Shown here piece by piece: positions 60-59,620 of a stretch of 59,620 bases of DNA. The position numbers were made by a program, and so were the translations under genes. The stretch spans positions 1 through 59,620 of the forward strand of contig CANQCS010000011.1 of assembly GCA_947589745.1 (NCBI GenBank). The letters run 5' to 3'. Numbering within the stretch: the first letter of the stretch is position 1; every line of letters starts with the position of its first letter. Below the pieces are notes generated by a model. The model saw only the letters and a program-made list of their open reading frames with translations. It ran no database searches and had not been told where the DNA came from. This DNA is from an uncultured Oscillospiraceae bacterium (GTDB lineage Bacteria; Bacillota; Clostridia; Oscillospirales; Oscillospiraceae).

Positions 60-600
60 CAAAGGGATAGCCATATTCTTAAAAATCTTTCCTTCATTTT
101 TTTGTTTAGGTTTGCGCTCCCCCTTTGGCTGGTTTTTCCTAAACCGCGCCGGGTCCCGTGTATGAGGCGAAGCGGCTGTTCCAGTATATCCTCAAGGAGA
201 TCCTTCTGCGGCGCAAGTTTCGCCGCTTGAGGCGGCGGAACCGAACATTGGGTGCGCTGGTCGTTTTCCGTATTCCAACTGCGTTCTGCTCCGTTCCACT
301 ACGCACAGGACAGATTTCCGTATACGGCCCGATACGAAATATTCATCAATTGCGTAGTGGAACGGAGCAACCAGTAGTATCGACTACGGCAAAAAAACAG
401 CACCCCCGATGAATGCTTTCCCTGGCCCCTAGTTCAACCATCCATCTGCCCTTAACAAAAAATGTCAGAGGTCCAGCCCTACGGGCTGGCGCCCTTTTGG
501 GTACTTTTCCCGCGTGGGAAAAGTACCCCAGGGTGCTGGCAAGCACTGAAAGACAGAATAAGAGGTGGTAGGGGCCGGAGGCCCCTACTTGATTTGCACT
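60..600 (+). repeat. Inverted-arm repeat element, copy A
   Basis: No convincing gene lies in the first 600 bases. The stretch is a nearly complete copy of a repeat seen seven times in this window. In order it has the right-flank block (about 105-270, with the stem GTTTCGCCGC/GCGGCGGAAC), an arm at 286-306, a short core containing GTATACGG, the inverted arm at 347-372, the left-flank block (about 385-465), the small palindrome CCAGCCCTACGGGCTGG, a hairpin with arms GGTACTTTTCCC/GGGAAAAGTACC (about 500-525) and a GGGGCC-rich palindrome near 572. Copy D is the best full-length relative in the same orientation. Open reading frames here are by-products of the repeat, although one (from 158) shares a peptide of about 37 residues with other copies. 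Confidence 0.85.
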
Positions 601-616
601 GTGGGGCTGCCGCCCC

Positions 617-4483: not shown

Positions 4484-4569
4484 AAAAGGGGGTCCTTTCT
4501 TTTCGAGGGACTGGGTGCCGTGGGGCTTCCAGCCCCTCGGGGTCTTGGTAGGGACCTTCGGTCCCTGCG

Positions 4570-5660
4570 CACCCTGGGTCCACTTTTTGACGTCAAAAAG
4601 TGGACGGAAAAAACGCCAGCCCTACGGGCTGGACCCCCTTTATTCTGGGGAGATCGTGGGTAGGAAGTACCCAGAGAAGGCTTTCATCGGGGGTGCGATT
4701 TTTTTGCCGTAGTCGATACTACTGGTTGCTCCGTTCTACTACGCAATTGGGGGCGCGGTGGTCGTCGATATTGAGCTCAAAATTACCGCCCTGAAAGGAG
4801 AAAACACGATCAAATGAAACTGTTTCGATCGACGTACAGACAAAGCCCAATTTCTTGAGCAATTTACACGACGGTATGTTATCGATCGCCGTTCCTGCGG
4901 TAAAAACAGTCGCACAATATTGATCTGCAAAATATTCAATAAGAGCCTTTGTACTTTCATAGGCATATCCGTTGGAGTGATACGCGGAATGAAAACAATA
5001 TCCCAGGTCGTACATGCTCCCATTTTTGTGGAAACACACGTATCCTATCATGTTATCCGAGCCTTTTTGAAATACCGCAAAGAACAAACCGCTTTCCGCG
5101 AACTGCTTTACCAACGCGTCGATCTCTTCCTCTTCTGTCGGAAAAGGCCGATCGTAAACAGCATATTGGGAATTATTAAAATCTACAAATATATCTCTCA
5201 TTCCCTGCCGATCCGTCTCGCGCAAAGTTCGTATATACAGTCTGCTCGTTTCTAATGTCAAAGCATTTCCTCCAAGACCATACGATTCGCATTTTCCCCT
5301 CAAGATCCCGACCAGCGCACCCAATGTCCGGTTTCGCCGCCTCAAGCGGCGAAACTTGCGCCGCAGCAGGATCTCCTTGGGGACATACCGAAACAGCCGC
5401 TTCGCCCCATACGCGGAACCCGGCACGGTTTAGACCAAACCAACCACATGGCGAGCGCAAACCTAAACAAAAAATAAGGAAAGATTCTCAAGAAAACCAT
5501 TCCTGGTTTTCTTGAGTGCACTTTTGGTTACTTTTCCTGCAAGGGAAAAGTAACCCCGTCGGGCCGTCCGGAGGACGGCCTTAGGGCTTGGGCCGCCGAA
5601 GGCGGCCTAGTGCCAGGGGTGCACCCCGCCTGAGGGTGCCTACTGACCCGGCGGGGGCGG
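4570..5660 (-). repeat. Inverted-arm repeat element, copy B, carrying a GNAT gene
   Basis: The plus strand shows a hairpin (CCACTTTTTGACGTCAAAAAGTGG, about 4580-4603), the palindrome CCAGCCCTACGGGCTGG, the left-flank block with GGCTTTCATCGG, and an arm at 4724-4749. The GNAT gene occupies the place of the core. The right-flank block follows (5312-5500, stem GTTTCGCCGC/GCGGCGAAAC), then a hairpin GGTTACTTTTCC/GGAAAAGTAACC near 5530-5555 and a cluster of GC palindromes to 5660. The second arm, present in other copies, is missing on the right of the gene. The element lies inside what is normally a dxs-tlyA operon. Confidence 0.85.
4719..5261 (-). CDS. GNAT-family N-acetyltransferase (RimJ/RimL-like), repeat cargo
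   Basis: This is a predicted 180-residue acetyl-CoA-dependent acyltransferase of unknown substrate. It begins MTLETSRLYIRTLRETD, has the fold order of the RimJ/RimL group, and shows a GYCFHSAYHSNGYAYES segment (about 95-111) in the acetyl-CoA loop region and KLLKKLGF near 143. I chose a TTG start at 5261 because GGAGG sits seven bases upstream; upstream sequence in frame belongs to the repeat. The gene is clearly more AT-rich than its neighbours, a sign of transfer. Its last nine codons (encoding NCVVERSNQ) and stop codon are the repeat arm itself, so the reading frame ends inside the element. Substrate class cannot be told from sequence alone. Confidence 0.85.
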   Translation of the reverse strand: MTLETSRLYIRTLRETDRQGMRDIFVDFNNSQYAVYDRPFPTEEEEIDALVKQFAESGLFFAVFQKGSDNMIGYVCFHKNGSMYDLGYCFHSAYHSNGYAYESTKALIEYFADQYCATVFTAGTAIDNIPSCKLLKKLGFVCTSIETVSFDRVFSFQGGNFELNIDDHRAPNCVVERSNQ

Positions 5661-5677
5661 AGCCCCCGCCCACCAGG

Positions 5678-14682: not shown

Positions 14683-14755
14683 AAGAAAAAGTATCAAAAA
14701 GAACTTTAATCTCGCTACCAAAACGTTGCAATTCCGACATTTCTCGCACGGTAAC
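14669..14755 (+). repeat. Stop-abutting repeat (family 2), copy 1
   Basis: The hairpin ACTTTTTCTTGAAAGAAAAAGT is followed by AAAAAGAACTTTAATCTCGC, CAAAACGTTGCAATTCC and GCACGGTAACGA. The same string occurs at or beside the ends of seven other genes in the window. There is no U-run after the stem, so it is not a classic terminator in the sense direction. Confidence 0.85.
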
Positions 14756-14806
14756 GATGCCTTGTTCTAACCGGAAAAATAAGGTTTCCTTCAAAAGCAG
14801 CAAACA

Positions 14807-23744: not shown

Positions 23745-25140
23745 CTTCGCCGCGCACCCTGGGTTACTTTTTGTGCAAACAAAAAGTAACCAAAAAATTG
23801 CTCAAGGGGGCTTTCGCCCCCTTGAGAATCCCTCCCGTGGGGGAAGGACGTTAAGGGCAGTCTTCCGGTAGGATGAGGACAGGGAAAGCTTTCATCGGTA
23901 CTGCTGCCTTGTTTTTCCGTAGTCTTACTGCCGGTTGCTCCGTTCCACTACGCAATTGATGGATGGTTCTTGTCGGACTGTTCGAGGGAGGGATGCGGCT
24001 TGGACGTACTTTGATAAATTCTAGATATCTTTTCTAAAGCATATAATCCTGTTTGCTTCCTCAAACCCCATAGCCATATGAAAGTGCAGACTGTCTTCAT
24101 TTTTGAGTTCACAGTCGCTGGCGAACTCTATACAATGCTTCTTTTTTGCCCAATTTTCACATTCTTTCAAGAGTTCCCTGGCATACCCGCGCTTACGATA
24201 CGCTTCCTCAATAAAAATCCCTTCCAGATATCCCACGGGTGAGCTGTCTGTTCCTTCAACATAATCGCTTCTAAGCTGACACTGAGAGAAACCTATTGCC
24301 CGTTCATCAACGTATTGAATAAAACATACAGCCGTATCACTGGCAATCAGCTTTTCAAACTCATGTGCCATTTCTGATAAAGAATTATCTTCCCAAAGTT
24401 TGAGTGCTAATTCTGCCAATATCATAGAGTCCTCTGGTTTTGCTAGTTTTATCATAATCCACCCCAAATAAAACTTTATTTGTCTTTGGTCAAACTCATA
24501 TCTACGCCGGTAATGAATCTTGCATTTGTATCCAATTCCTCTGTACCATCCAGATACAGCACATTCCTCTAGCCATTTGCCGTCTCCCATCAATCCCGCT
24601 TTGCCGCTACGTTAGACCATATACCCATGATATCACGCCCCAGCAACAACTTCAAGCCATTGACCGTGAAGAACTTTCACGCAAAATCACCCCACACCCC
24701 AACGGCTCGCGCTATCCCTTGCGGAGTGGAACGGAGCAGACAGCAGTCGGACAAGCACCAAAACGACCAGCGCACCCAATGTCCGGTTCCGCCGCCCCAA
24801 GCGGCGGAACTTGCGCCGCAGCAGGATCTCCTTGGGGACATACTGAAACAGCCGCTTCGCCCCATACACGGGACCAGGTCCGGTTTAGACAAAACCAACC
24901 ACAGGGGGAGCGCAAAACTAAACAAAAAATAAGGAAAGATTCTCAAGAAAACCATTCCTGGTTTTCTTGAGTGCACTTTTGGTTACTTTTCCTGCAAGGG
25001 AAAAGTAACCCCGTCGGGCCGTCCGGAGGACGGCCCTAGGGCTTGGGCCGCCGAAGGCGGCCTAGTGCCAGGGGTGCACCCGTCGGGGGTGCGCATCAGA
25101 CCCGGTGGGGGCCGGAGGCCCCCACACCCCCACACCCCCA
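23745..25140 (-). repeat. Inverted-arm repeat element, copy C, carrying an AAC(6')-like gene
   Basis: This is the clearest loaded copy. The left hairpin GGTTACTTTTTGTG/CAAACAAAAAGTAACC (about 23763-23791), a stem AAGGGGGC/GCCCCCTT, the left-flank block with GGGAAAGCTTTCATCGG and the arm at 23933-23958 are followed by about 60 core-like bases, the acetyltransferase gene, about 260 bases of other sequence and a second, inverted arm at 24719-24740. The right-flank block (24768-24900, stem GTTCCGCCGC/GCGGCGGAAC), an A/T-rich palindrome pair (ACCATTCCTGGT), a GGTTACTTTTCC hairpin near 24980-25010 and GC palindromes complete it to 25140. Confidence 0.88.
24021..24455 (-). CDS. Aminoglycoside 6'-N-acetyltransferase-like GNAT protein, repeat cargo
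   Basis: The 144-residue product follows the chromosomal AAC(6')-I layout from start to end: MIKLAKPEDS start, LALKLWEDNSLSEMAHEF, a central DYVEGTDSSPVGYLEGIFIE (about 64-83), the acetyl-CoA loop YRKRGYARELLKECENWA (86-103), EFASDCELKNEDSLHFHMA (110-128) and MGFEEANRIICFRKDI at the end. AAC(6') enzymes acetylate the 6'-amino group of aminoglycosides; activity here is inferred. Start ATG at 24455 matches family starts, although GGGGTGG is only a few bases upstream. The gene is AT-rich against a GC-rich background and sits between two inverted arms of the repeat, as mobile cargo would. Confidence 0.85.
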   Translation of the reverse strand: MIKLAKPEDSMILAELALKLWEDNSLSEMAHEFEKLIASDTAVCFIQYVDERAIGFSQCQLRSDYVEGTDSSPVGYLEGIFIEEAYRKRGYARELLKECENWAKKKHCIEFASDCELKNEDSLHFHMAMGFEEANRIICFRKDI

Positions 25141-29849: not shown

Positions 29850-29879
29850 ATACTTACTGTTCTCCCATTAGAAATATCC

Positions 29880-29968
29880 TTCGTTACCGTGTGGGAAATG
29901 TAGGTATTGCAACGTTTTGAGAGCGATGTTAAAGTTCTTTTTGATACTTTTTCTTTCAAGAAAAAGTA
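29880..29968 (-). repeat. Stop-abutting repeat (family 2) inside the spoIIIA operon
   Basis: On the minus strand the hairpin TACTTTTTCTTGAAAGAAAAAG starts at the spoIIIAC stop, followed by AAAAAGAACTTTAACATCGC, the GTTGCAATACC segment and CACACGGTAACGAAG. It splits an operon that is normally contiguous. Confidence 0.85.
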
Positions 29969-30163
29969 TTAGAAGCCGAAGAGGGTCTTGATGAGCTGGA
30001 ACAGGTCGCTAATCTCCCGCACCAGCATCATCATCACCACCACCAGCCCCGCCAGGGTGGTCATGAGGGCCTGCTCCTCACGGCCCGATCGGACCAGGAG
30101 CTGGTTGAGCACCGCCACCACGATGCCGATGGCCGCGATGCGAAAAATGAGGTCAATATCCAT
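29969..30163 (-). CDS. spoIIIAC: Stage III sporulation protein AC
   Basis: The 64-residue product, MDIDLIFRIAAIGIVVAVLN at the start, has two membrane helices and matches SpoIIIAC in size and pattern (LVRSGREEQALMTTLAGLVV). It begins two bases after the spoIIIAB stop. It is easily missed, since a longer spurious frame covers it. Confidence 0.94.
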   Translation of the reverse strand: MDIDLIFRIAAIGIVVAVLNQLLVRSGREEQALMTTLAGLVVVMMMLVREISDLFQLIKTLFGF

Positions 30164-34279: not shown

Positions 34280-34308
34280 TTTCATATTATTCTCTCATTA
34301 AAAGTGCA

Positions 34309-34398
34309 CTTCGTTACCGTGCGGAAAATGTAGGAATCGCAACGCTTTGAGAGCGAGGATAAAGTTCTTTTTGATACTTTTTCTTTCAAGAAAAAGTA
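34309..34398 (-). repeat. Stop-abutting repeat (family 2)
   Basis: Reading the minus strand, the hairpin TACTTTTTCTTGAAAGAAAA begins at the stop of the M56 gene and is followed by AAAAAGAACTTTATCCTCGC, GCGTTGCGATTCC and GCACGGTAACGAAGTGCA. This is the best match to the copy in the spoIIIA operon. Confidence 0.85.
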
Positions 34399-36297
34399 TC
34401 AATCCTGCTCCGCCGGTTCCCCGGTCCAGCCGCGGACCGGGCGCAGCCCCGTTACGGTCCCCACCGGGACCTGCGTCTGGCTGGCATAGGGCCCGTCCCG
34501 CCATGTTCCCACCAGCACGCCGCCGCTCTCGCTGTCCGCCGTCACGCAGGTTCGGAAGACGACGCTGCTGGCCAGACCCAGCCAGTTGTTGGTGACGCCG
34601 TAGGTCCGGACGCCGGAGAGGGTCTCGCCCATCACCGGCCGGATGGACAGCTGTTCCCCCGCTTCTCCGAAGGTGTACGTCAGCGCCGCGTTCTCGGGAA
34701 TGGTCCCGTCCGCCGCAGGGTCCCAGTAGACGGTCTCGCCGGGGCTCAGGGTCAGGGAGCGCCCCACGGGCGTCATTTCCTCCCCCGCCTGCTGATAGAG
34801 CTGTCCGGCGCTGGCCGCGACCTCTACCGTCCCCAGGTCCTCGCCGAATCGCACCGGCAGCAGGCTGCCGGACTGCCAGGCCCACAGTGCGCCGCTGCCG
34901 CCGATGAACGTATGGAAGGGGTCGATCAGCTGGTAAATTCGGAAATCCCCGATCCACAGGGTGGTCCCGCCGTCCTCCAGGCTCAGCTCCCAGATGGTCT
35001 CCGTCCGTTCCCCGTCTCCATAGCGCCGCATGGTGACGGCGGTGACTCCGGCAGCGGCGGCTCGGATCTCATCGGGCAAGATGGGCCGGCTGTCAAAGAG
35101 GGCGAAAAATTCCTCCGGAGTGTAATCGGCGGTCTCCGTCAGACTGCCGGACCAATCCTCCCCTTTGTTGTTCACAACGGTGAGGACGCCGTCCTCCTCC
35201 CATACGTCGGCATACTGCCAGCCCACAGGGAACCACGCGCTGAGCCCTCCGTCCTGTCCGATGAGGGCGCCGCCGGTGTAGTGCCGGGGCGCGTTGGTGG
35301 CAGAACTGCCAGCGGGCTGTTCCGCTGTGTCTGCCAAAGCGCTGCCGCTGTTGGGCCGTTCTTCCGCCACGGCCGGGTCAGTGAGGAAGCACACCGCCGC
35401 CACCGCGCACAGCAGCAGAGACGCCGCCGCCACCCAGAGGGCCGGCCGCCGGTAGCGGAGGATGTTCTTCACCCGCTCTTTCACGCCAACCTCTCCGAAA
35501 GCCAGCGGGCAGACGATGGAGGCGCGGCCCGCGCCGCACCGGAGCAGGGCCCGGGAGTAGGCGGCCTTGCTCCCCTCCCCCAGCTCCCGGACCACCCGCT
35601 CGTCGCAGGCCAGCTCGATGTCCCGGCACAGCAGCGCATAGGCCGCCCACACCAAGGGATGGAACCAGTAGACCGCCAGCAACGCATAGGCGGCGGGCTT
35701 GGTCCAGTGGTCCCGCCGGGCCAGGTGGGACCGCTCGTGGGCCAGGACGAACCCCAGCTCCTCTCCCTCCAGGCCGTAGGGCACGTAGATAGTAGGCCGG
35801 ACCAGCCCCAGCAGGAAGGGCGACGGGATGCCGCCGCACCGCCGGAAGCCGTCCTCCCGCACCGCTTCCCGGACCTGCCGCCGGAGCCTCCACCAGCTCC
35901 AGAGGCCGTATAGGGCCAGCACTGCCAGCCCCGCCAGCCAGATCCACCCGGCTATCTCCGCCAGATGGGCGGTGTTGTGGACAGGGACGGTGATGCCCTC
36001 GTAGTAGTGGTCGCCCAGGTAGTCGTTGACCCGGGCGTTCACATAGGGGATCCCGGTGCTGACCCGGAAGGAGTTTCTCTCCAGGTACTCCGGGGCAACC
36101 ACTTGGGCGCTGGGCACCAGGCTGACGGGAGCCTGGGGAAAGGCGGGCAGCACCAGCCGCAGCCCCACCAGCAGCCACAGCAGGCACCGCACGTTCTTGG
36201 GCGCTCTCCGCAGCGCCAGCCGCAGGACCAGCACCGCCAAAATCAGCCACCCGGCGGCGTAGGCCCGGTTCCAGAGGGTCAGAAACAGCTCACCCAT
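34399..36297 (-). CDS. M56-family membrane metalloprotease (BlaR1/MecR1-like sensor)
   Basis: BlaR1-type proteins sense a signal at the cell surface and cleave a BlaI-type repressor. The 632-residue product has membrane helices at about 10-30, 35-52, 105-125 and 310-330, and the cytoplasmic zinc site FVLAHERSHLARRDHW (near 196) with ELACDERVV downstream. The C-terminal part of about 300 residues is not a penicillin-binding domain; it shows GWQYADVWEEDGVLTVVNN and no SxxK acylation pattern I can assign, so the ligand is probably not a beta-lactam. I chose the ATG at 36297 (MGELFLTLWNRAYAAGW) because GGAGGAGAACC is directly upstream. The start overlaps the BlaI-type gene. Confidence 0.9.
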   Translation of the reverse strand: MGELFLTLWNRAYAAGWLILAVLVLRLALRRAPKNVRCLLWLLVGLRLVLPAFPQAPVSLVPSAQVVAPEYLERNSFRVSTGIPYVNARVNDYLGDHYYEGITVPVHNTAHLAEIAGWIWLAGLAVLALYGLWSWWRLRRQVREAVREDGFRRCGGIPSPFLLGLVRPTIYVPYGLEGEELGFVLAHERSHLARRDHWTKPAAYALLAVYWFHPLVWAAYALLCRDIELACDERVVRELGEGSKAAYSRALLRCGAGRASIVCPLAFGEVGVKERVKNILRYRRPALWVAAASLLLCAVAAVCFLTDPAVAEERPNSGSALADTAEQPAGSSATNAPRHYTGGALIGQDGGLSAWFPVGWQYADVWEEDGVLTVVNNKGEDWSGSLTETADYTPEEFFALFDSRPILPDEIRAAAAGVTAVTMRRYGDGERTETIWELSLEDGGTTLWIGDFRIYQLIDPFHTFIGGSGALWAWQSGSLLPVRFGEDLGTVEVAASAGQLYQQAGEEMTPVGRSLTLSPGETVYWDPAADGTIPENAALTYTFGEAGEQLSIRPVMGETLSGVRTYGVTNNWLGLASSVVFRTCVTADSESGGVLVGTWRDGPYASQTQVPVGTVTGLRPVRGWTGEPAEQD

Positions 36298-36729: not shown

Positions 36730-36769
36730 GAGGACAAAAGAGCTGTTTTTGATAAACGGGTGGAGGGGG

Positions 36770-37450
36770 CTCCGCCCCCACCGGGTTTGATGTGCACCCC
36801 CGATGGGTGCAACCCGGGGTTACTTTTCCCTCGTGGGAAAAGTAACCAAAAGCACGCTCAAGAAAACCAGGAATGGTTTTCTTGAGAATCTTTCCTTATT
36901 TTGTTTATGTTTGCGCTCCCCCTTTGGCTGGTCTGGTCTAAACTGTTCTTGCTCCCGTGTATGAGGCGAAGCGGCTGTTTCAGTATGTCCCCAAGGAGAT
37001 CCTGCTGCGGCGCAAGTTTCGCCGCTTGGGGCGGCGAAACCGGACATTGGCTGCGCTGGTCGTTTTTACGTATTCCGACTGCGTTCTGCTCCGTTCCACT
37101 ACGCAATTGACAAATGTTTCGTTACGCACCCGAATAGAACCGCGCCATCAATTGCGTAGTGGAACGGAGCAACCAGCAGTAAGACTAAGGAAAAACAAAC
37201 CAGCACCCCCGATGAAAGCCTTCCCTGGCCCCTAGTTCTACCCTCCATCTACCCTTAACGTCCTCCCCAAACGGCAGGGATTCTTAAGGGGGCGCGAGCC
37301 CCCTTAAGTGCACTTTTGGTTACTTTTCCTGCAAGGGAAAAGTAACCCAGGGTGCCGGCAGGCACTAAAAAATATTTTAAGAGGTGGTAGGGGCCGGAGG
37401 CCCCTACGGATAGGCACCCGGGGGCTGCGCCCCCGCGCCCCCGGAACAAA
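36770..37450 (+). repeat. Inverted-arm repeat element, copy D (complete, no cargo)
   Basis: The best full copy. Order: hairpin GGTTACTTTTCCC/GGGAAAAGTAACC (about 36817-36847); palindromic ACCAGGAATGGT with TTCTTGAG; TTTGCGCTCCCCCTTTGGCT; right-flank block with the stem GTTTCGCCGC/GCGGCGAAAC at 37016-37040; arm 37086-37109; core of 39 bases; inverted arm 37149-37174; left-flank block with CCCCCGATGAAAGCCTTCCC; stem AGGGGGC/GCCCCCTT; hairpin GGTTACTTTTCC/GGAAAAGTAACC (about 37317-37346); CCGGCAGGCAC; and GTAGGGGCCGGAGGCCCCTAC near 37388. It fills the 820 bases between the BlaI-type promoter and the acyl-CoA ligase stop. Confidence 0.9.
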
Positions 37451-41849: not shown

Positions 41850-42600
41850 GGGGGCTCCGCCCCCACCGGGGCTGATGAGCACCCCCGATGGGTGCTCCCC
41901 CGGGTTACTTTTTGTGCAAACAAAAAGTAACCAAAAAATTGCTTAAGGGGCTGTCGCCCCTTAAGAATCCCCGGGGAGGACGGTTAAGGTCAGATGGATG
42001 GTGGAACTAGGGGCCAGAGAAAGCTTTCATCGGGGGTGCTGGTTTGTTTTTCCTTATTCTTACTGCTGGTTGCTCCGTTCCACTACGCAATTGACAGATG
42101 TATCTATTCGTTGTGTGAGGGACGGGATACTCTGCGCAGAGAGTTTAGTCAGGGTACGCACTGGGAATATTTCTCCTTGACTGCCGCCCTTTCCCCGCAG
42201 GGGAAAGGTGGCGCGGACGAATGGTCCGCGACGGATAGGGGGACCGTAGGGCTGATTGTGCAGTAACGAACAAACGGAACCAGCCCGAACAACACCCCCG
42301 ACAACCTCCGCGCCCTCAATTGCGTAGTGGAACGGAGCAATCAGCAGTCGGAATACGGCAAAAAAACAGCACTCCCCGATGAATGCTTTCCCTGGCCCCT
42401 AGTTCCATCAACCGTCTGCCCTTAACGTCATCCCCGGGGATTCTCAAGGGGCCCAGCCCCTTGAGCAACTTTTTGGGTACTTTTTGTTTGCACAAAAAGT
42501 ACCCCAGGGTGCCGGCAGGCACTGAAAAATAGAATAAGGGGTGGTAGGGGCCGGAGGCCCCTACTGATTGGCATTAGGGGGCTGCGCCCCCCACACCCCC
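41850..42600. repeat. Inverted-arm repeat element, copy E (symmetrical)
   Basis: This copy has two left flanks facing each other. From the left: hairpin GGTTACTTTTTGTG/CAAACAAAAAGTAACC, GGGGCCAGAGAAAGCTTTC, arm at 42068-42093; from the right, inverted: arm at 42317-42342, CGATGAATGCTTTCCCTGG, hairpin GTACTTTTTGTTTGCAC. The 220-base core has its own stems (TTTCCCCGCAGGGGAAA near 42190 and GCGGACGAATGGTCCGC near 42213) and no convincing gene. The right-flank block is absent. With the T-box leader it fills 41379-42648. Confidence 0.85.
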
Positions 42601-42648: not shown

Positions 42649-43863
42649 TTAGTCCTCGCCGCCGAAAAACTTATCGTGTACGGCCCGGACCGCGTTGACG
42701 GCGTCGCCCTCGTCAATGAGGACCGACACACGGATCTCGCTGGTGTTGATCATCTGGATGTTGATGTTGGCGTCGTACAGCGCCTCGAACATCTTGGCGG
42801 CCACGCCCGGCGTGGTCATCATACCGGCGCCCACGATGGACACCTTGGCGATCTTGTCCTCCACCGTCAGGTGGTCGAAGCGAATGCTCTCCTTGTTCTC
42901 CTCCAGGACCTTCACGGCCTCTTCCACGTCCGCCTTGGGCAGCGTGAAGCTGATATCCTTGCTGGACTCCCGGCCGATGGACTGGATGATGGCGTCCACG
43001 TTGATATTGGCCCGACCCAGCAGGTCGAACACCCGGAACGCCACGCCGGGGCTGTGCTCCACGCCTACTACGGCGATCCGGGCGATACTGGTATCCTTCG
43101 CCACTCCGGCGATATTGGTCTTTTCCATCTTGGCAACCTCCTTGACCTTGGTGCCCGGCTTGCGCTCCAGGCTGGACACCACTTCCATATTCACGTGATA
43201 TTTCTTCGCCAGCTCCACGCTGCGGTTATGGAGCACCTGGGCCCCCTGGCTGGCCAGCTCCAGCATCTCGTCATAGGTGATCTCCGGCAGCTTCAGCGCT
43301 CCCGGCACGATGCGGGGATCGGTGGTGTACACGCCGTCCACGTCCGTGAAGATCTGGCACAGGTCCGCGTGGAACGCCGCCGCCAACGCCACCGCGCTGG
43401 TGTCGGAGCCGCCGCGGCCCAGGGTGGTCACGTCGCCGACGCGGTTCACGCCCTGGAACCCGGCCACCAGAACGATCTTGTTCTTGTCCAGCTCCCGCTG
43501 GATGCGGTCCGGCGCGATCTTGTTGATGCGGGAGTCCGAGTAGGCTCCGGTGGTGCGGATGCCCACCTGCCAGCCGGTCAGGCTGACCACCGGCAGGCCC
43601 ATGCCCTCCAGGGCCATGGCGCACAGGGCGATGGAGATCTGCTCACCGGTGCTGAGAAGCATATCCATCTCCCGCTTGGAGGCGTGGGGATTGATCTCCT
43701 TGGCCTTGTCGATCAGGTCGTCGGTGGTGTCGCCCTGGGCGGACAGGACCACCAGCACCTGGTTCCCCGCCCGGTAGGTATCGGCGATGATGCCCGCCAC
43801 GTTCCGGATGCGCTCCGCGTCCCGGACTGAGCTGCCGCCGAATTTCTGTACGATGAGTTTCAT
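42649..43863 (-). CDS. lysC: Aspartate kinase
   Basis: Aspartate kinase makes aspartyl phosphate, the entry to lysine, threonine and methionine synthesis. The 404-residue product has the N-terminal KFGGSSV (residues 7-13), LVAGFQGVNRVGDVTTLGRGGSDTSA-type core (near 132-157) and two C-terminal ACT domains (about 265-404) for feedback control. Length matches monofunctional, ACT-regulated enzymes. It follows hom by 59 bases on the same strand, and copy E lies beyond its stop. Confidence 0.97.
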   Translation of the reverse strand: MKLIVQKFGGSSVRDAERIRNVAGIIADTYRAGNQVLVVLSAQGDTTDDLIDKAKEINPHASKREMDMLLSTGEQISIALCAMALEGMGLPVVSLTGWQVGIRTTGAYSDSRINKIAPDRIQRELDKNKIVLVAGFQGVNRVGDVTTLGRGGSDTSAVALAAAFHADLCQIFTDVDGVYTTDPRIVPGALKLPEITYDEMLELASQGAQVLHNRSVELAKKYHVNMEVVSSLERKPGTKVKEVAKMEKTNIAGVAKDTSIARIAVVGVEHSPGVAFRVFDLLGRANINVDAIIQSIGRESSKDISFTLPKADVEEAVKVLEENKESIRFDHLTVEDKIAKVSIVGAGMMTTPGVAAKMFEALYDANINIQMINTSEIRVSVLIDEGDAVNAVRAVHDKFFGGED

Positions 43864-43922
43864 GTGGGTCTTCCCTTCTGATAGTTCTTACACTCCAGTA
43901 TAATCTTGACAGTGTTCTTTGG

Positions 43923-45089
43923 TCATTCCAGGACAGGCAGCAGCGCCGCCGCGCCCAGCTGCTCCGCCAGGGCCTTGGCCTCGCGTCCGGCCATGGGCCC
44001 CACGAGGTACGCGTCTTCTCCCACGCTCTGGCCCTCCGCCGGGGCCTCGCCGCCGCGGAGATACCACTTCATAGGCAGCTCCGCCTCCTGGTCGATGAGC
44101 CGGGCAGGCTCGCTCCAGCCCAGGTCCCGCCGCTTGGCCCGGTGCTCCAGGGCGTCCAGGATATCCCCCATGACGGCGGAGGCGGTGGGCAGGTCCCCGG
44201 CCCCGCGGCCGTAGAACATCACGTCGCCCACGGCGTTGCCGCGGATGAGGATGGCGTTGAACACATCGTCCACCGGGGCGATGGGGCTGGTCTCCGGCAC
44301 CAGATGGGGGGAGACGTAGGCGGCCTGCCGCCCGTCAGCCAGCTTCAGCGCACGGCCCAGCAGCTTGATGCGGTAGCCGGCGGCGTGGGCGATGTCCACG
44401 TCCTTCAGGTCCAGGCCCGTGATGCCCCGCATGGAGATGTCCTCAGGCCGGACCTCCCCGCCCCAGGCCAGGTCGGAGAGAATGCAGATCTTCCGCCCGG
44501 CGTCCAGGCCCTCCACATCGGCGGCGGGATTGGCCTCGGCGTAGCCCTTGGCCTGGGCCTCCTTCAGGGCGTCCGCAAAGGGCACGTTGTCCTGCACCAT
44601 GCGGGTGAGGATATAGTTGGTGGTGCCGTTGAGGATGCCCACGATCTCCTGGATCTGGTTCCCGGCCAGGCACTGGAACAGGGGCCGCAGCAGGGGGATG
44701 CCGCCGCCGACGCTGGCCTCAAAGAGGTAGTTGACGTTCTTCTCCTTGGCGATGGCCAGCAGCTCCTTGCCGTGGCTGGCCACCAACTCCTTGTTGGAGG
44801 TGACCACGTGCTTGCCCGCCAGCAGGGCCCGCCGGGTGAACTCCAGGGCTACCCGGGCCCCGCCAATGGTCTCCACCACCAGGTCCAGGTCCGGGTCGTT
44901 CTCCAGGACGGAGAAGTCCTTCACCGCGATATCCGCATAGGGTGTGTCGGATAAGTCCCGCACGTCCAGAATATACTTGAGGGTCAGGGGTTCCCCCAGC
45001 TTCTTCTCGATGACCTGGGCGTTCATGCGGAGCACCTCCGCCACGCCGCCGCCCACGGTGCCGAAGCCCATGATCGCAAAGCTTGCCAT
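43923..45089 (-). CDS. hom: Homoserine dehydrogenase
   Basis: It reduces aspartate semialdehyde to homoserine for threonine and methionine. The 388-residue product has the NAD(P) motif GFGTVGGGV (about 8-16), GILNGTTNYILTRM (near 170-183), the catalytic AEANPAADVEGLDAGRKICIL (near 205-225) and RGITGLD. Firmicutes enzymes usually end in an ACT domain near 430 residues; this one is shorter and its end (LPMKWYLRGGEAP onward) is only a reduced version. A separate ACT-domain protein is encoded just upstream. Confidence 0.96.
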   Translation of the reverse strand: MASFAIMGFGTVGGGVAEVLRMNAQVIEKKLGEPLTLKYILDVRDLSDTPYADIAVKDFSVLENDPDLDLVVETIGGARVALEFTRRALLAGKHVVTSNKELVASHGKELLAIAKEKNVNYLFEASVGGGIPLLRPLFQCLAGNQIQEIVGILNGTTNYILTRMVQDNVPFADALKEAQAKGYAEANPAADVEGLDAGRKICILSDLAWGGEVRPEDISMRGITGLDLKDVDIAHAAGYRIKLLGRALKLADGRQAAYVSPHLVPETSPIAPVDDVFNAILIRGNAVGDVMFYGRGAGDLPTASAVMGDILDALEHRAKRRDLGWSEPARLIDQEAELPMKWYLRGGEAPAEGQSVGEDAYLVGPMAGREAKALAEQLGAAALLPVLE

Positions 45090-45197
45090 ATCGTACTCTC
45101 TCCTTTTTCTTCTCTTAATGTTAAATGAATTTGTCTCTCTTTTTCCTATCCGCCGCCGCGTGCCTCGCGGAACCGGCGGAAATCAATCAAGCAGGCT

Positions 45198-45467
45198 GAC
45201 CGCGCCGTACAGAACTCAGTTCATTCTCCCCCACTCCCGCCGTCCGCCGCCAATGTGCGGCAGGCCGGGACCGATGGAGAAAAGCCGAGCCCCTCTGGAC
45301 GCGACGTATAGAACCCAGCCCCTTCTCCCCCACTCCCGCCATGCCGCCGTCACCGTGCGGCAAGCCGGGACCGATGGAGAAAAGCCGAACCTCCCTGGAC
45401 GCGCCGTATAGAACCAGCCCCTTCTCTCCCACTCCCGCCATGCCACCGTCACCGTGCGGCAAGCCGG
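45198..45467 (+). repeat. Tandem repeat with exact 100-base period
   Basis: Two full units (45198-45297, 45298-45397) and about 70 bases of a third, with GACGCG...CCCACTCCCGCC...CCGTCACCGTGCGGCAAGCC in each. The middle and last copies are almost identical. The CACCGTGCGG piece resembles the end of the family-2 repeat, whose hairpin follows at 45505-45537, so the array seems to have grown from that element's tail. It lies between hom and the ACT gene. The period is not a multiple of three, and no real gene is seen. Confidence 0.9.
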
Positions 45468-45484
45468 AGCCAAGCAGAGTGCAT

Positions 45485-45537
45485 CAGAGCGAAATTAAAG
45501 TTCTTTTTGCCTACTTTTTCTTTCAAGAAAAAGTAGG
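45485..45537 (-). repeat. Stop-abutting repeat (family 2)
   Basis: Hairpin CTACTTTTTCTTGAAAGAAA on the minus strand starts at the stop of the ACT gene and is followed by AAAAAGAACTTTAATTTCGC. The distal tail is replaced by the 100-base tandem array. Confidence 0.8.
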
Positions 45538-45978
45538 TCAGCCGGCGAGGATCTCGAATTTGACGACGCCGGAGGCGGAGGAGATGTGGGAAATGAGCTC
45601 CTCCAGGCTCTCCTGCATGTCGCTGGTCTCAGCGGAGATGGTGACGGCGGCGCAGCCGTTGGTGGGGATGGACTGGTTGATGGTCAGTATATTCGCGCCG
45701 CTCCCGGCAAAAATAGACAGGACGTTGCTGAGCACGCCGGGGTTGTCCTTGAGCATGGCGTAGAAGGTGATGATGCGGCCCACCTTCATGTTGTTGAAGG
45801 GCTGCACCGCGTCCTTGTACTTGTAGAACGCGCTGCGGCTGATGCCCGCCTGCCGGGTGGCCTCCCCTACCGTGGCCGCCTCGCCGGTCTGGAGCCGCCG
45901 CTTGGCCTCCACCACCTTAATGTAAATCTCCGGCAGCGCCTCGGCGGCCACAATGTAGTATTTTGTTTTGGTTCCCAT
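45538..45978 (-). CDS. ACT domain-containing protein (PheB/UPF0735-like)
   Basis: The 146-residue product has an N-terminal helix-turn-helix-like part (ATVGEATRQAGISRSAFYKYKD, about 34-55) and a C-terminal ACT domain (about 70-146, YAMLKDNPGVLSNVLSIFAG). Such proteins accompany hom and chorismate genes in Firmicutes and are thought to sense amino acids; PheB naming is historical. I chose the ATG at 45978, with GGAGG 12 bases upstream. It lies upstream of hom-lysC on the same strand but is separated by the 450-base repeat region. Confidence 0.9.
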   Translation of the reverse strand: MGTKTKYYIVAAEALPEIYIKVVEAKRRLQTGEAATVGEATRQAGISRSAFYKYKDAVQPFNNMKVGRIITFYAMLKDNPGVLSNVLSIFAGSGANILTINQSIPTNGCAAVTISAETSDMQESLEELISHISSASGVVKFEILAG

Positions 45979-46121
45979 AATGTCTGTGTTCCTCCTACGG
46001 TCACATGTCCTCAATCGGCGTTATTGTATCACAAGATTCGGCAGTTTACAACCGAAAGTGGCTCAAAAAATTTTACAAAATTTTTGATGACGCAAATAGA
46101 AATGGGGTGCAATTCAACGAT

Positions 46122-47186
46122 ATGACGCGGCAAAGTGTCTTTTGGCAGCGGGCAGCCGCCGCTCTGCTGTGGGCAGCGGGGGCGTTTGTGTTCTTCCGGT
46201 GGCTGCTGGCGCCGCTGCTGCCCTTCCTGCTGGCGCTGGGGCTCAGCGTCGTGACGGAGCCCTGGGTGGAGCGGGTGCGGAAGCTGCTGCGGGTGAGGCG
46301 GAGCTTTGCCGCCGGGGTGGTGACCACGGCGGTGCTGCTGGTGGCGGGCGGCGGCGCGGGGCTGGGGCTCATGCGGCTGGGGACGGAGCTGCGGGAATGG
46401 ACGGCGCGGCTGCCGGAGGTAATGGCGGGGTTCCCGGCGGTGTGGAACGGCTTTCTGGACCGGCTGGGGAACTGGTACGCGGCCAGTCCGGCCTTTGTCC
46501 GCAGGGCGCTGGACGCGCTGGCCCAGGCGCTGATGGACCGGGGGCCGTCTTTGGCGGTGGACGTGGGCGGATGGCTGATGGGGACGGCGTCCGGGCTGCT
46601 GTCGGCCCTGCCGGACGTGGGGCTCTTTCTGGTCACCACGGTGCTGGCGGCGTACTTCACCAGCCTGAGCTATCCGTCCATCCTGGCGTTTTTGAAGCGG
46701 CAGCTCCCTCCGGCCTGGCAGAGCAAGTGCCGGGCATCGGCGGCGTGCTTTCGGAGCACGGTGCGCAAGTGGCTGAGGGCGGAGCTGACGCTGATCGCCA
46801 CCACCTTCGGCATCCTGCTGGCAGGATTTGTGTGGATGGGGCTGGACTACGCGCTGCTGGCGGCGGTGTTCACCGCGGTGGTGGACGCCCTGCCGGTGCT
46901 GGGCACGGGAACGGTGCTACTGCCCTGGGCGGCGGGGTGTCTGCTCCTGGGGAACACCGGCCGGGGCGTCGCCCTGGCGGCGCTCTACGCGGCGGCCCTG
47001 CTGACCCACACCCTATTAGAACCCCGCCTGCTGGCGGGGCAGGCAGAAGTGCCGCCGGTGGCGGCGCTACTGGCCATGTACCTTGGTTTTTATTTCCTCG
47101 GGGTGGGAGGAATGGTGATGTTTCCGATCATCATGATACTGGTAAAACAGTTTCATGACGCGGGGATCATTGCTATCTGGAAATAA
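46122..47186 (+). CDS. ytvI: AI-2E family transporter, sporulation membrane protein YtvI-like
   Basis: The 354-residue product has seven to eight membrane helices and the AI-2E family C-terminal segment DYALLAAVFTAVVDALPVLG (about 245-264) with FLGVGGMVMFPIIMI. YtvI members are made during sporulation in Bacillus, but their job is unknown, and other family members export small molecules. I chose the ATG at 46122 (MTRQSVFWQRAAAAL); only a weak GGGGTG lies upstream. The gene is divergent from the ACT gene. Confidence 0.88.
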   Translation: MTRQSVFWQRAAAALLWAAGAFVFFRWLLAPLLPFLLALGLSVVTEPWVERVRKLLRVRRSFAAGVVTTAVLLVAGGGAGLGLMRLGTELREWTARLPEVMAGFPAVWNGFLDRLGNWYAASPAFVRRALDALAQALMDRGPSLAVDVGGWLMGTASGLLSALPDVGLFLVTTVLAAYFTSLSYPSILAFLKRQLPPAWQSKCRASAACFRSTVRKWLRAELTLIATTFGILLAGFVWMGLDYALLAAVFTAVVDALPVLGTGTVLLPWAAGCLLLGNTGRGVALAALYAAALLTHTLLEPRLLAGQAEVPPVAALLAMYLGFYFLGVGGMVMFPIIMILVKQFHDAGIIAIWK

Positions 47187-47249
47187 TCCCCTTCCAGGGG
47201 GGTCTGGGGGGGCGCAGCCCCCACAATGCTGTCAAAAGGGGCCTCCGGC

Positions 47250-48060
47250 CCCTTTCACCTCTTTATCTTCTCGCAGCTACGCCGCGCACCCTGGGTTACT
47301 TTTTGTGCAAACAAAAAGTAACCAAAAAATTGCTCAAGGGGGTTTGGCCCCCTTGAGAATCCCCTCCGTGTGGGAAGGGCGTTAAGGGCAGTTGGATGGT
47401 GGAACTAGGGGCCAGGGAAAGCTTTCATCGGGAGTGCCTCCTTGTTTTTCCTTAGTCTTACTGCTGGTTGCTCCGTTCTACTACGCAATTGATAGATGTT
47501 TCTTGTCGGGTCGTATACGGAAATCTATCCCTTGCGTAGTGGAACGGAGCAGGACGCAATCGGTTCGAGCCGTATACGGAAATGTATCAATTACGTAGTG
47601 GAACGGAGCAACCAGCAGTAGGTCAACGGACAAAACGACCAACGCACCCAATGAGCCCCTGCACCAGCGCTTCATTCTCCTTGGGGACATACTCAAACAG
47701 CCGCTTCGCCCCTATACACGGGACCCGGTTCAGTTTAGACCAAACCAACCACAGGGGGAGCGCAAAACCAAACAAAAAAATAAGGAAAGATTCTCAAGAA
47801 AACCATTCCTGGTTTTCTTGAGTGCACTTTTGGTTACTTTTCCTGCAAGGGAAAAGTAACCCCGTCGGGCCGTCCGGAGGACGGCCCTAGGGCTTGGGCC
47901 GCCGAAGGCGGCCTAGTGCCAGGGGCGCACCCATCGGGGGTGCAGATCAGACCCGGTGGGGGCCAGAGGCCCCCCTAGATGTTCCTCGGGGACATCGAGT
48001 CCCCTCGAAACATTTGACAGTTGCGCCTGCGGCGCAACTATCGTGGGGGCGGAGCCCCCA
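47250..48060 (-). repeat. Inverted-arm repeat element, copy F (three arms, no cargo)
   Basis: Left hairpin GGTTACTTTTTGTG/CAAACAAAAAGTAACC (about 47294-47323), stem CAAGGGGG/CCCCCTTG, left-flank block, arm 47466-47491, core with CGTATACGGAAATCTATCC, inverted arm 47532-47552, the core motif again, and a third arm 47588-47613. The right-flank block is shortened: the GCGGCG stem is replaced by an unrelated 20-base stretch. The block ends with the GGTTACTTTTCC hairpin (about 47830-47860) and GC palindromes. It fills the gap between ytvI and the acyl-CoA synthetase promoter. Confidence 0.88.
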
Positions 48061-50616: not shown

Positions 50617-50707
50617 CCCGTCACCGTGCGGCAGACCCGGTCCCGTAGAGTCCCGGGAGCGAGGTTAAAGTTCTTTTTGCCTACTTTTTCTTTCAAGAAA
50701 AAGTAGG
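50617..50707 (-). repeat. Stop-abutting repeat (family 2)
   Basis: Minus-strand hairpin CTACTTTTTCTTGAAAGAAA begins at the stop of the lipoprotein deacetylase gene, followed by AAAAAGAACTTTAACCTCGC and a diverged tail with CGCACGGTGACGG. The last part matches a piece of the 100-base tandem array. Confidence 0.8.
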
Positions 50708-52324
50708 TCACTCGTTCCACTCCTCGCCGACGCCCAGATCGGGGCGGACGGAGGTGTCCATGATCTCCTTGGCGTCATAGAACCGCATGTACCGGTTCCG
50801 GGACCAGCGGAGGGTCTTGCCGTCCGGGTGCATCCGGTCGCAGATCACGGCGCAGATATCCTTCTTGATATAGCTGAAGGGTTCGACGCCCACGCTGGCG
50901 AAGACCCGGAAGCCCTGGCTCTGGAGATACTGGAAGATGGGGCCGGTGCTGGTCCAGTCCTGGCCGTCGGGCCGCTCGCCGTGGGGGTAGAACAGGATCT
51001 TCGTCTCGCCCACCAGGCTGCCCACCTCGTCGAACCAGAGCTGGGTGTCCTTCTGGATGTCCTCCAGCTTCCACCTGGCGTTACCGCTGAGGCGGATGTG
51101 GCCCCAGGTGTGGCTGCCGAAGGTCCAGCCGGTGCGCTTGAGCTCCTCGATGATGGGCTTCACGGCCTCCCGCTCCTGCTGGCGGACCGCCTCCTGCTCT
51201 GCGGTAAGGCCCTCGGTGGTGGTGTTGGTGCGGTAGCCCAGGATACCCTCATAGCCGGTGAGGCTCAGGCAGGCCTTGGCCCCGAAGGGGGAGAAGTCCG
51301 GGTGCTCCTCCACGAACTTGTCCAGGATGGGGATGGCGTCCAGGTCCCGGCTGACCACCTCGTTGCCCTGGGGGTCCAGGCCCCAGGACCACACCTTGCC
51401 GTCCTCGCCCAGGATCAGCTTGTAGGTCAGGCCGCCCTCCAGCATATATTCGTAGTAGTTGGTGTCGTCGTAGGAGAAGATCAGGGGCTTGGTGCCCTCG
51501 GGGATGTAGAGGGTGTTCTTCACCATCTTGGGCTGGCCGTCGTCGCCGGTGACCTCGCTCCACACGTCGTTGATATCCACCAGGATATAGCCCTTCTCGT
51601 AGACGTTCTGGAGGATCTTGTTGAACTCGCCCACGGTAACCATCCAGTCGTCCATGTCGTCCCCGGCGGCGGTGCCGTCAAAGGCCAGCTCCGGGTAGGC
51701 GATGATGGGGTGGAAGAAGAGGTGCTCCACCACGCCGTCCCAGGCCACATATTTGACGCCGTCCCGCTCGCCGCCCTCAGGCATGACCTTGGGGTCGTAG
51801 ATGAAGTATGGCTCCATCTCCGGCTTGGGCTGGGTGCGGAAATGGTCCGCGCCCAGGCCGCTGTCCTCCGCCAGGGTCTTGAGGGTGCTGAAGAAGCTGT
51901 CCGGCATGGCGGCGTACCAGTGGTCATAGGCCACCACCCCCGCGCCGTAGGAGAAGCGGTACTCCGTCTGGCTGTCGGAGAAGGTCAGGGCGCCGTTGTA
52001 GTAGAACGGGTCGTGGTTGGCGGCGTCGTTGTCGGTCCAGTCCGCCTCGGCCAGGGCGGCGATGGCGTCGTGGAGCGCCGCGGCGGTTCCTGGGTCGGAG
52101 ATCGTGCCGTCCTCCGCCATCTGAGGGGCGGTGAGGGCGGTAAAGGCGGTGTCCTCCGGGCTCTCGCCCTCGGCCACCGGGGCGGTGAAAAAGACGGCGG
52201 AGCCGGTGAGCGGCGCCGTCTCCGAGCCCTTGGGATCTTCCTTATCCTGTCCGGGCTCCTTGGCGCAGGATGCCAGGGACAAAAGCATGGCCAGGGCCAG
52301 CAGCAGCGCGATCCATCGTTTCAT
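50708..52324 (-). CDS. Lipoprotein with polysaccharide deacetylase-like domain
   Basis: The 538-residue product has a lipoprotein signal (MKRWIALLLALAMLLSLASC, Cys at residue 20) and is expected on the outer face of the membrane. The C-terminal half carries a NodB-like fold: KPLIFSYDDTNYYEY (near 260-274) in place of the catalytic TFDD motif and TFGSHTWGHIRLSG (near 402-415) for the metal histidines, then ILFYPHGERP. The N-terminal 200 residues are unassigned. It may trim acetyl groups from cell-wall or capsule sugar; the altered first motif leaves activity open. A good promoter lies at 52370-52398. Confidence 0.85.
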   Translation of the reverse strand: MKRWIALLLALAMLLSLASCAKEPGQDKEDPKGSETAPLTGSAVFFTAPVAEGESPEDTAFTALTAPQMAEDGTISDPGTAAALHDAIAALAEADWTDNDAANHDPFYYNGALTFSDSQTEYRFSYGAGVVAYDHWYAAMPDSFFSTLKTLAEDSGLGADHFRTQPKPEMEPYFIYDPKVMPEGGERDGVKYVAWDGVVEHLFFHPIIAYPELAFDGTAAGDDMDDWMVTVGEFNKILQNVYEKGYILVDINDVWSEVTGDDGQPKMVKNTLYIPEGTKPLIFSYDDTNYYEYMLEGGLTYKLILGEDGKVWSWGLDPQGNEVVSRDLDAIPILDKFVEEHPDFSPFGAKACLSLTGYEGILGYRTNTTTEGLTAEQEAVRQQEREAVKPIIEELKRTGWTFGSHTWGHIRLSGNARWKLEDIQKDTQLWFDEVGSLVGETKILFYPHGERPDGQDWTSTGPIFQYLQSQGFRVFASVGVEPFSYIKKDICAVICDRMHPDGKTLRWSRNRYMRFYDAKEIMDTSVRPDLGVGEEWNE

Positions 52325-55851: not shown

Positions 55852-55859
55852 CCCATCTC

Positions 55860-55950
55860 ATACTTTTTCTTGAAAGAAAAAGTATCAAAAAGAACTTTCA
55901 TATCGCTACCAAAGCGTTGCAATTCCTACATTTCTTACACGGTGACGATA
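55860..55950 (+). repeat. Stop-abutting repeat (family 2)
   Basis: Hairpin ACTTTTTCTTGAAAGAAAAAGT, AAAAAGAACTTTCATATCGC, CAAAGCGTTGCAATTCC and ACACGGTGACGATAT. It starts nine bases after the stop of the second GntR gene. Confidence 0.85.
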
Positions 55951-55976
55951 TATGGTTTTCATTGAAGAATAGTATC

Positions 55977-57431: not shown

Positions 57432-57540
57432 GTCACTTTTTCTTGAGTCACTTTTTCTTGAAAGAAAAAGTGACCAAAAAGAACTTTACTCCCGCTCCCG
57501 CCTCCGGTACCTATCCCACATTCCCGCACGGTAACGAAAG
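57432..57540 (+). repeat. Stop-abutting repeat (family 2) with a 15-base duplication
   Basis: GTCACTTTTTCTTGA occurs twice in a row, and the second copy is completed into the hairpin GTCACTTTTTCTTGAAAGAA. AAAAAGAACTTTACTCCCGC and CCCGCACGGTAACGAAAG follow. It starts at the stop of the SLC13 gene and separates it from the dehydratase genes. Confidence 0.85.
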
Positions 57541-59165: not shown

Positions 59166-59289
59166 CGCCTCGGGGGCGGCAGCCCCCGGGGCCCCTCTGT
59201 CAAGGGGGTGATTTGCCTGTCCGCCGCCGGAAAATGGCGGAGGGGGGCTCCGCCCCCATCGGCCTGGGTGGGGGCTGCCGCCCCCTGCC

Positions 59290-59620
59290 TTACCCCCGGT
59301 GACTTTTTGTGCGAACAAAAAGTCACCAAAAAATCGCCAGCCCTACGGGCTGGACCCCCTTTCTTTTTGGGGGAGATTGTGGTATGGTAGGGGCCAGGGA
59401 AAGCTTTCATCGGTACTGCCCCCTTGTTTTTCCGTAGTCCAACTACTGGTTGCTCCGTTCCACTACGCAATTGATACATGTTACGTATCGAGCCGTCAAC
59501 GGAAATCTGTCCTGTGCGTAGTGGAACGGAGCAGACCGCAGTCGGACAAAGTAAAAACGACCAGCGCACCCAATGTTCGGTTTCGCCGCCCCAAGCGGCG
59601 AAACTTGCGCCGCAGCAGGA
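59290..59620 (-). repeat. Inverted-arm repeat element, copy H (cut by the window end)
   Basis: Hairpin GTGACTTTTTGTGC/GAACAAAAAGTCAC (about 59299-59327), palindrome CCAGCCCTACGGGCTGG, left-flank block with GGGAAAGCTTTCATCGG, arm 59448-59473, core with CCGTCAACGGAAATCTGTCC, inverted arm 59513-59535 and the start of the right-flank block with GTTTCGCCGC/GCGGCGAAAC. No gene is seen from 59166 to the end. Confidence 0.88.

Follow-up and report, generated by a model that had tools for sequence, protein, structure and literature searches.

A hairpin-framed, gene-carrying repeat in an Oscillospiraceae genome: a candidate non-autonomous mobile element with a cargo slot

The repeat described here, of which the genome of an uncultured Oscillospiraceae bacterium is estimated to hold about 200 elements, is best explained as a non-autonomous, gene-carrying foldback mobile element with an internal cargo slot, a reading to which we give a probability of about 0.55. 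It most likely acts like a mobile insertion cassette or a cargo-bearing MITE, membership in neither class being established. New copies would arise by transposition, with an enzyme supplied in trans that reads the arms, the end hairpins or both. Once inserted, the copies would go on exchanging modules by gene conversion, which may also move cargo from one copy to another.

The window, that is the whole stretch of 59,620 nucleotides that was analysed, is contig 11 of the source genome, an assembly of 4.05 Mb in 252 contigs. With three mismatches allowed, the arm core was matched 14 times in the window, in seven clusters (dinucleotide-shuffled controls, n = 100: mean 0.01, largest 1), showing that all seven copies claimed in an earlier note on this DNA are real, and both of the orientations claimed for them are seen; copies 1 and 7 sit at the two contig ends. 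The uniform inverted-arm plan that the note assigned to them holds for most, but the copy at 4570-5660 has one recognisable arm and that at 47250-48060 has three. Likewise the copies do lie between the main open reading frames (ORFs) of the ORF list, as claimed, but two of them hold GNAT acetyltransferase genes; the other short ORFs that overlap several copies are taken to be spurious.

Across the source genome the arm occurs 425 times when two mismatches are allowed, 202 times on the forward and 223 times on the reverse strand, while the reversed arm pattern, used as a control on the whole source genome, gave no match, and the focal copy as query returned at least 126 matching pieces, with 40 of 270 candidates scored. 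In the sample read, 1,618,012 bases or about 40% of the source genome, 213 arms (up to three mismatches) fell into 98 groups: 45 plain two-arm groups, 27 with three arms (19 of the form +-- and eight ++-), 12 gapped, defined by a gap of more than 80 bp between neighbouring arms, 13 with a single arm and one ++. With 2.2 arms to a group, the 425 arms extrapolate to the figure of about 200 elements. Of the 12 gapped groups, at least L059 and L128 look like adjacent elements merged by the grouping, so that the sample contains at most 10 paired-arm cargo copies, some of them with an interior that looks non-coding. A stretch of 17-20 kb contains between 0 and 6 elements (mean 1.13, variance 1.73; 78 stretches). 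A test of flanking-gene orientation, which relied on a crude gene caller and a span cut, took in 59 of the 98 groups, the three-arm copies having fallen out; it found 34 groups between called genes, 14 inside called ORFs that are taken to be spurious and 11 unplaced, and supports no conclusion.

Table 1. Positions in the window of the repeat copies, the modules of the focal copy, the cargo genes and a separate hairpin repeat.
Feature	Position	Strand	Description or basis
Copy 1	60..615	-	two arms (287 +, 351 -); R end incomplete at contig start
Copy 2	4505..5665	+	single arm (4727 +), GNAT cargo, inverted arm lost
Cargo ORF, GNAT acetyltransferase (copy 2)	4719..5426	-	Acetyltransf_3 2.1e-18
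Copy 3	23745..25140	+	arms 784 bp apart (second with 2 mismatches), GNAT cargo
Cargo gene, GNAT acetyltransferase (copy 3)	24021..24593	-	Acetyltransf_1 8.9e-18
Focal copy	36765..37442	-	two-arm form; R end left, L end right
Outer GC palindrome, R end	36765..36779	.	sequence; termini of 46 elements
Hairpin A, R end (GGTTACTTTT...AAAAGTAACC)	36818..36847	.	sequence and stem tests
Hairpin B, R end	36857..36886	.	sequence and hairpin search
R block	36890..37065	-	part matches four other genomes of the same genus
Arm, 19 bp	37087..37105	+	arm search
Short core; cargo site in other copies	37106..37152	.	sequence, comparison of copies
Inverted arm	37153..37171	-	arm search
L block with CCGATGAAAGC	37172..37260	-	sequence, end typing
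Hairpin B, L end; stem sequence unlike that of the R end	37283..37308	.	sequence and hairpin search
Hairpin A, L end	37318..37347	.	sequence and hairpin search
Two GC palindromes, outer L end	37387..37442	.	sequence, terminus list
Copy 5	41850..42600	+	arms 250 bp apart; interior looks non-coding (by eye)
Copy 6	47200..48060	+	three arms (+ - -)
Copy 7	59255..59620	+	cut by contig end
Short hairpin repeat	14668-14758, 29855-29973, 34284-34399, 45487-45540, 50657-50710, 55856-55975, 57453-57499		window

The modular plan reported earlier is readable directly in the sequence of the focal copy, which runs from a GC palindrome through two hairpins and a block to the arm, core and inverted arm, and on through a second block to further hairpins and GC palindromes. 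The arms are bordered by the L block at one end of the element and by the R block at the opposite end, followed outward by hairpin B, hairpin A and the GC palindromes; mirrored at both ends, the palindromes and the two hairpins constitute terminal inverted repeats, the exact terminal base of which is uncertain (outer termini were compiled for 46 elements). Of 73 compact elements, 51 combine an L with an R end, two are LL, two RR and 18 have one end untyped, and the 38 that passed the terminus search have a median length of 650 bp (range 590-823) and a GC content of 0.547. Spacing is strict: inverted neighbouring arms are 64-66 bp apart in 72 of 74 pairs, with 63 and 67 bp in the other two, and same-strand arms are 60 bp apart in 28 of the 29 cases in the sample. 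Folded as a single DNA strand the focal copy reaches -179 kcal/mol, with a z score of -14.4 (20 shuffles, DNA parameters).

The hairpins at the ends had been noticed before and are present; what had been overlooked is that they persist as structure more than as sequence. Of at most 196 ends, 170 match a loosely defined hairpin A motif, and all four tested stem positions are paired in 166 of these 170, with at least five stem types represented (GTTA, GGTA, GTGA, CCTA, GTTC and rarer ones). Real halves pair at 3.98 of the 4 positions compared with 2.99 for randomly re-paired halves, for which the largest shuffle value was 3.13. By a stricter search that required perfect stems, 88 of 138 ends have hairpin A, leaving 50 without a perfect one under this rule, and 87 have hairpin B; perfect hairpins numbered 2.8 per end against 0.04 in 45 shuffles. 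Because stem pairing persists through compensatory changes while the stem sequence varies, comparison of the copies indicates that the element ends are kept as shape more than as sequence, either selection or templated correction of palindromes being responsible. The 19-bp arm presents a different picture, being near-invariant, yet within one element the left and right arms (0.70 mismatches) are not closer to each other than arms taken from different elements (0.59; 84 pairs), with neither within-element likeness nor covariation, and it therefore looks like a site that is read by its sequence.

A separate short hairpin repeat in the window, ACTTTTTCTTTCAAGAAAAAGT and its relatives with an AAAGTTC flank (Table 1), resembles hairpin A of the element, and a GC-rich pair of 54-bp direct repeats, 96% alike, occupies window positions 45315-45467 just before the hairpin repeat. 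Near position 4757 of locus L119 and position 4560 of L140, hairpin B is joined at one and the same position by another DNA segment, the inner ends being similar by eye; in L119 a radical-SAM-like gene, also recognised by eye, is nearby. A second mobile element that targets hairpin B is possible from these two loci.

Sequence variants are shown to reassort among the copies, and misassembly could add to the mosaic pattern. The 42 two-arm copies that were aligned have a mean identity of 77% (range 50-91%), and linkage among them decays with distance, r2 being 0.45 for sites 1-5 bp apart and 0.04 for those 101-200 bp apart (shuffled baseline 0.03); for site pairs more than 100 bp apart, all four combinations occur in 93-97%. 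No pair exceeds 91% identity, so that no fresh copy is seen, and short-read assembly may drop identical copies.

The core between the arms, identified in the earlier note, is present; its role as a cargo site had been missed. It is either about 45 bp long or occupied by one to two genes, and most copies carry no gene. Cargo is framed by the two arms or, in copies that have lost one of them, by the outer blocks. In addition to the two GNAT genes of the window, of which the ORF of copy 2 runs on into the arm and probably has its true start inside the ORF, a third GNAT gene is carried at locus L055, a methyltransferase with a DUF6199 protein at L054, a pair of proteins with no named family at L057 and further such proteins at L062 and L146. 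An HTH_3 regulator (L063) lies between the R block and a single arm, while the end of an MmeI-type gene (TRD and C domains; L121) adjoins a single arm, the gene seemingly extending past the start of its contig. Another kind of interior, which looks non-coding by eye, is shared by six copies or more (window 42071, L060, L143, L146, L129, which has one arm, and L246). Five copies combine one L and one R end with an intact gene, and in all five the reading direction is from R to L, a small number judged by eye, and the cargo junctions, also by eye, do not fall at one fixed base. Cargo GC content is 0.41-0.55 compared with 0.616 for the sampled genome, but the element flanks themselves have a GC of 0.53; thus the low values of the methyltransferase (0.55) and MmeI (0.53) cargo are no sign of foreign origin, and only the A+T-richer cargo stands out.

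The distribution of the element is narrow, and from the genomes searched it is apparently confined to one genus. A core search of 39 other relatives, including 24 other genomes of the genus, matched four (G008, G012, G019 and G020), all from that genus. With up to two mismatches the arm was found in seven of 300 family genomes, 425 times in the source and once in each of six others, leaving 293 with none; since the reversed-arm control gives one match in each of five family genomes, five of the six single-match genomes are at chance level, and only G267 among the six has the exact arm. The R-block motif (up to two mismatches) occurs in two of 160 family genomes, 82 times in the source and six times in G012; three of the 160 are within the genus, and the 157 outside it gave no match (control 1). 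G019, a separate assembly of another species, contains elements with the same plan, with 17 arms in 752,876 bases of the forms TGCTCCGTTCCACTCCGCA (5) and CGCTCCGTTCYACTCCGCG (12) and four close inverted arm pairs spaced 65, 65, 65 and 74 bp. In G008, G012 and G020, which are other species of the genus, related ends adjoin HTH genes or short genes of ribbon-helix-helix type, the latter a reading by eye, the one such protein tested having no Pfam match, and one element, together with its gene, occupies a common position in G008 and G012.

When the 98 groups were compared with the 752,876 bases of G019, only two had both flanks on one piece. The distance between flank matches at these loci is 664 and 762 bases in the source but 37 and 115 in G019; the check for empty sites in relatives thus finds the element absent from G019 at both testable loci, with loss in G019 also possible. 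At the gene unit of window positions 42649-47186, 12 genus mates have no element match alongside; they were rejected as clean empty sites, the neighbouring genes being different. G019 itself has, at the conserved gene unit, a GC palindrome that by eye resembles the outer element end.

In G267, which belongs to another genus of the family, a source-type half element lies beside a GNAT gene at the end of contig 24 (L228, 17330-18156). The GNAT region is 98% identical over 594 bases to a gene on contig 4 of the source, where it sits outside the elements, and 158 bases at the end of G267 contig 29, comprising a GNAT gene start, match at 97%; the rest of contig 24 has only about 70-73% identity to the sampled source genome among the 40 of 62 matches listed. 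Transfer of the element with the GNAT gene into this genus is possible, as is a chimeric contig end.

The search for a parent enzyme covered four families in the source genome, and a parent transposase was not found among them. No Y1 (RAYT-type) transposase (PF01797) was detected in the source genome, with five of 14 control genomes positive, and no Tn3 transposase, with two of 14 positive, although an unassembled replicon could hold one. DDE_Tnp_1 gave seven matches there, four over the cut-off, and Phage_integrase (PF00589, tyrosine recombinase) 27, of which 26 were over the cut-off. An arm is present in two of the 12 tyrosine-recombinase loci cut out. The best PF00589 match, on contig C129 (L246, about 180-1090), is flanked on one side by an element and on the other by the end module of a second one; by eye it looks like a host XerD-like protein, and its location is probably a coincidence. 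No enzyme that tracks with the copies was found among these, and no insertion sequence was seen that shares the element ends. The observation that no transposase is in sight holds for the window copies; elsewhere, the R block of the L162 copy contains an insertion sequence (12823-13766) with ATGCGAATCAAG inverted ends, the transposase of which scores 20.4 bits with DDE_Tnp_1_3, below the cut-off of 27. It was rejected as the parent and taken as a nested insertion, having by eye inverted ends of its own.

A target-site duplication was looked for in 40-nt flanks of 38 elements and none was seen, the longest common repeat averaging 5.03 compared with 4.89 by chance. Element orientation shows no bias to local GC skew (44 of 82), and a strand-specific function was set aside on this ground. 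An Rfam 15 scan of the window at gathering score returned only a tRNA, a blastn search with the focal copy found nothing in phages or plasmids, and viral contigs, scanned with three exact patterns, gave no match either. The sample read contained no integron array, no integron integrase was seen with PF00589 as the model and no attC-like core was recognised by eye. The passages of the open literature consulted on prokaryotic repeats and mobile elements do not name this repeat, and the earlier view that it has no named family agrees with the Rfam, phage, plasmid and literature sources searched. Mobility gains indirect support from the empty sites at two of two loci, the lack of orientation bias and the cargo genes; it is still inferred, because no copy-tracking enzyme was found and no target-site duplication was seen.

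The evidence has also to be set against a different view of the repeats, as residents of the chromosome whose arms bind a host DNA-binding protein and whose hairpins serve as terminators or insulators, spread by recombination and with cargo that landed in permissive spacers. A near-invariant 19-bp arm in copies that average 77% identity, the strict arm spacing (65 bp in three of the four close G019 pairs), arms that fail to covary within an element, as expected of a sequence-read site, and the one element at the same place in G008 and G012 are all consistent with this, but the absence of orientation bias to GC skew, the uneven density and the recurrence of genes between the arms fit it poorly, and an arm absent from 293 of 300 family genomes and single in six would be odd for a host function. 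On balance we regard it as unlikely, if worth keeping in mind. Much less probable is that the repeat is the source of a structured non-coding RNA family with the hairpins as RNA parts, for which the compensatory stem changes and the strong single-strand fold (z -14.4, from one copy with DNA parameters) would speak; the window has no Rfam match besides a tRNA, the arms do not covary and the core is interrupted by genes. Palindromes in DNA can, moreover, stay paired through templated correction too.

Dedicated gene capture, integron-like but dispersed, in which a site-specific recombinase would use the arms as its recombination sites and insert genes there one at a time, would agree with the types of cargo and its size of one or two genes, with the uniform R-to-L reading of the five eligible copies and with the presence of 27 tyrosine-recombinase matches, the best of them beside an element on C129. 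Against it are the variable cargo junctions, the host XerD-like appearance of that recombinase (both by eye), the arm being found in only two of 12 recombinase loci and the fact that no integron integrase or cassette array was seen, and we consider it improbable. The same doubtful standing is given to the proposal that about 200 chromosomal hairpin-framed slots, each with a pair of near-invariant 19-bp sites at fixed spacing, load single genes, unlike integrons, and that the cargo (in this gene-capture reading acetyltransferases, methyltransferases, restriction enzymes and regulators) circulates by gene conversion and occasionally passes into another genus, for which the GNAT gene beside the half element of G267 may be cited. 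An artefact of the draft assembly can hardly account for the repeat: several contigs do end inside elements, the window at both ends, and misassembly could yield part of the mosaic pattern, but copies lie in differing flanks inside many contigs and G019, assembled separately from another species, has the same plan.

The preferred reading, a non-autonomous mobile element, invites comparison with known systems. BOX, Correia and REP-BIME sequences are intergenic high-copy hairpin repeats, BOX being modular with a variable number of middle units; the present element is alike as an intergenic hairpin repeat but is longer and carries genes, and in contrast to REP/REPIN sequences with RAYT its source genome yielded no Y1 transposase. 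Integron gene cassettes are single genes framed by palindromic sites, whereas here the units are dispersed, no array or attC-like core was seen and sites lie on both sides of the gene. Mobile insertion cassettes (MICs) hold a passenger gene within inverted ends, have no transposase of their own and share their ends with known insertion sequences. A passenger gene between inverted ends without a transposase is found here also, but no parent insertion sequence was found, the ends consist of stacked, variable hairpins and the majority of copies are geneless. The MIC231 type of Bacillus cereus is named as a mobile insertion cassette in a passage of PMC6542083. Prokaryotic MITEs, according to a section of PMC10969869, have no transposase, inverted ends, high copy number, strong secondary structure and a length of 50-500 bp, and their target-site duplication wanes with age. 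The element resembles them in being transposase-free, with terminal inverted repeats, high copy number and a strong fold; it differs in a median length of 650 bp that exceeds the MITE range, in that no target duplication was seen and no parent found, in its inner slot with near-invariant arms and in its unlike L and R ends. MITEs are typically A+T-rich, and the GC of the element (0.547) is below that of the sampled genome (0.616) but not below that of the flanks (0.53). TIMEs, which a part of PMC4133298 describes as Tn3-derived inverted-repeat miniature elements, are non-autonomous and make mosaic transposons. Our element is likewise probably non-autonomous and has a mosaic pattern, but no Tn3 transposase was found in the source genome.

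Should the repeats not be mobile, a pair of near-invariant 19-bp arms, strictly spaced and present at an estimated 200 sites of one species, would point to a new DNA-binding protein. If they are mobile, they represent a dense, gene-carrying, non-autonomous repeat with an anatomy clear enough to test, and raise the questions of what enzyme recognises hairpins conserved in shape but variable in sequence and what reads the near-invariant arm. Such an element would also allow genes for defence, acetyltransferases and regulators to enter these genomes and to move about in them.
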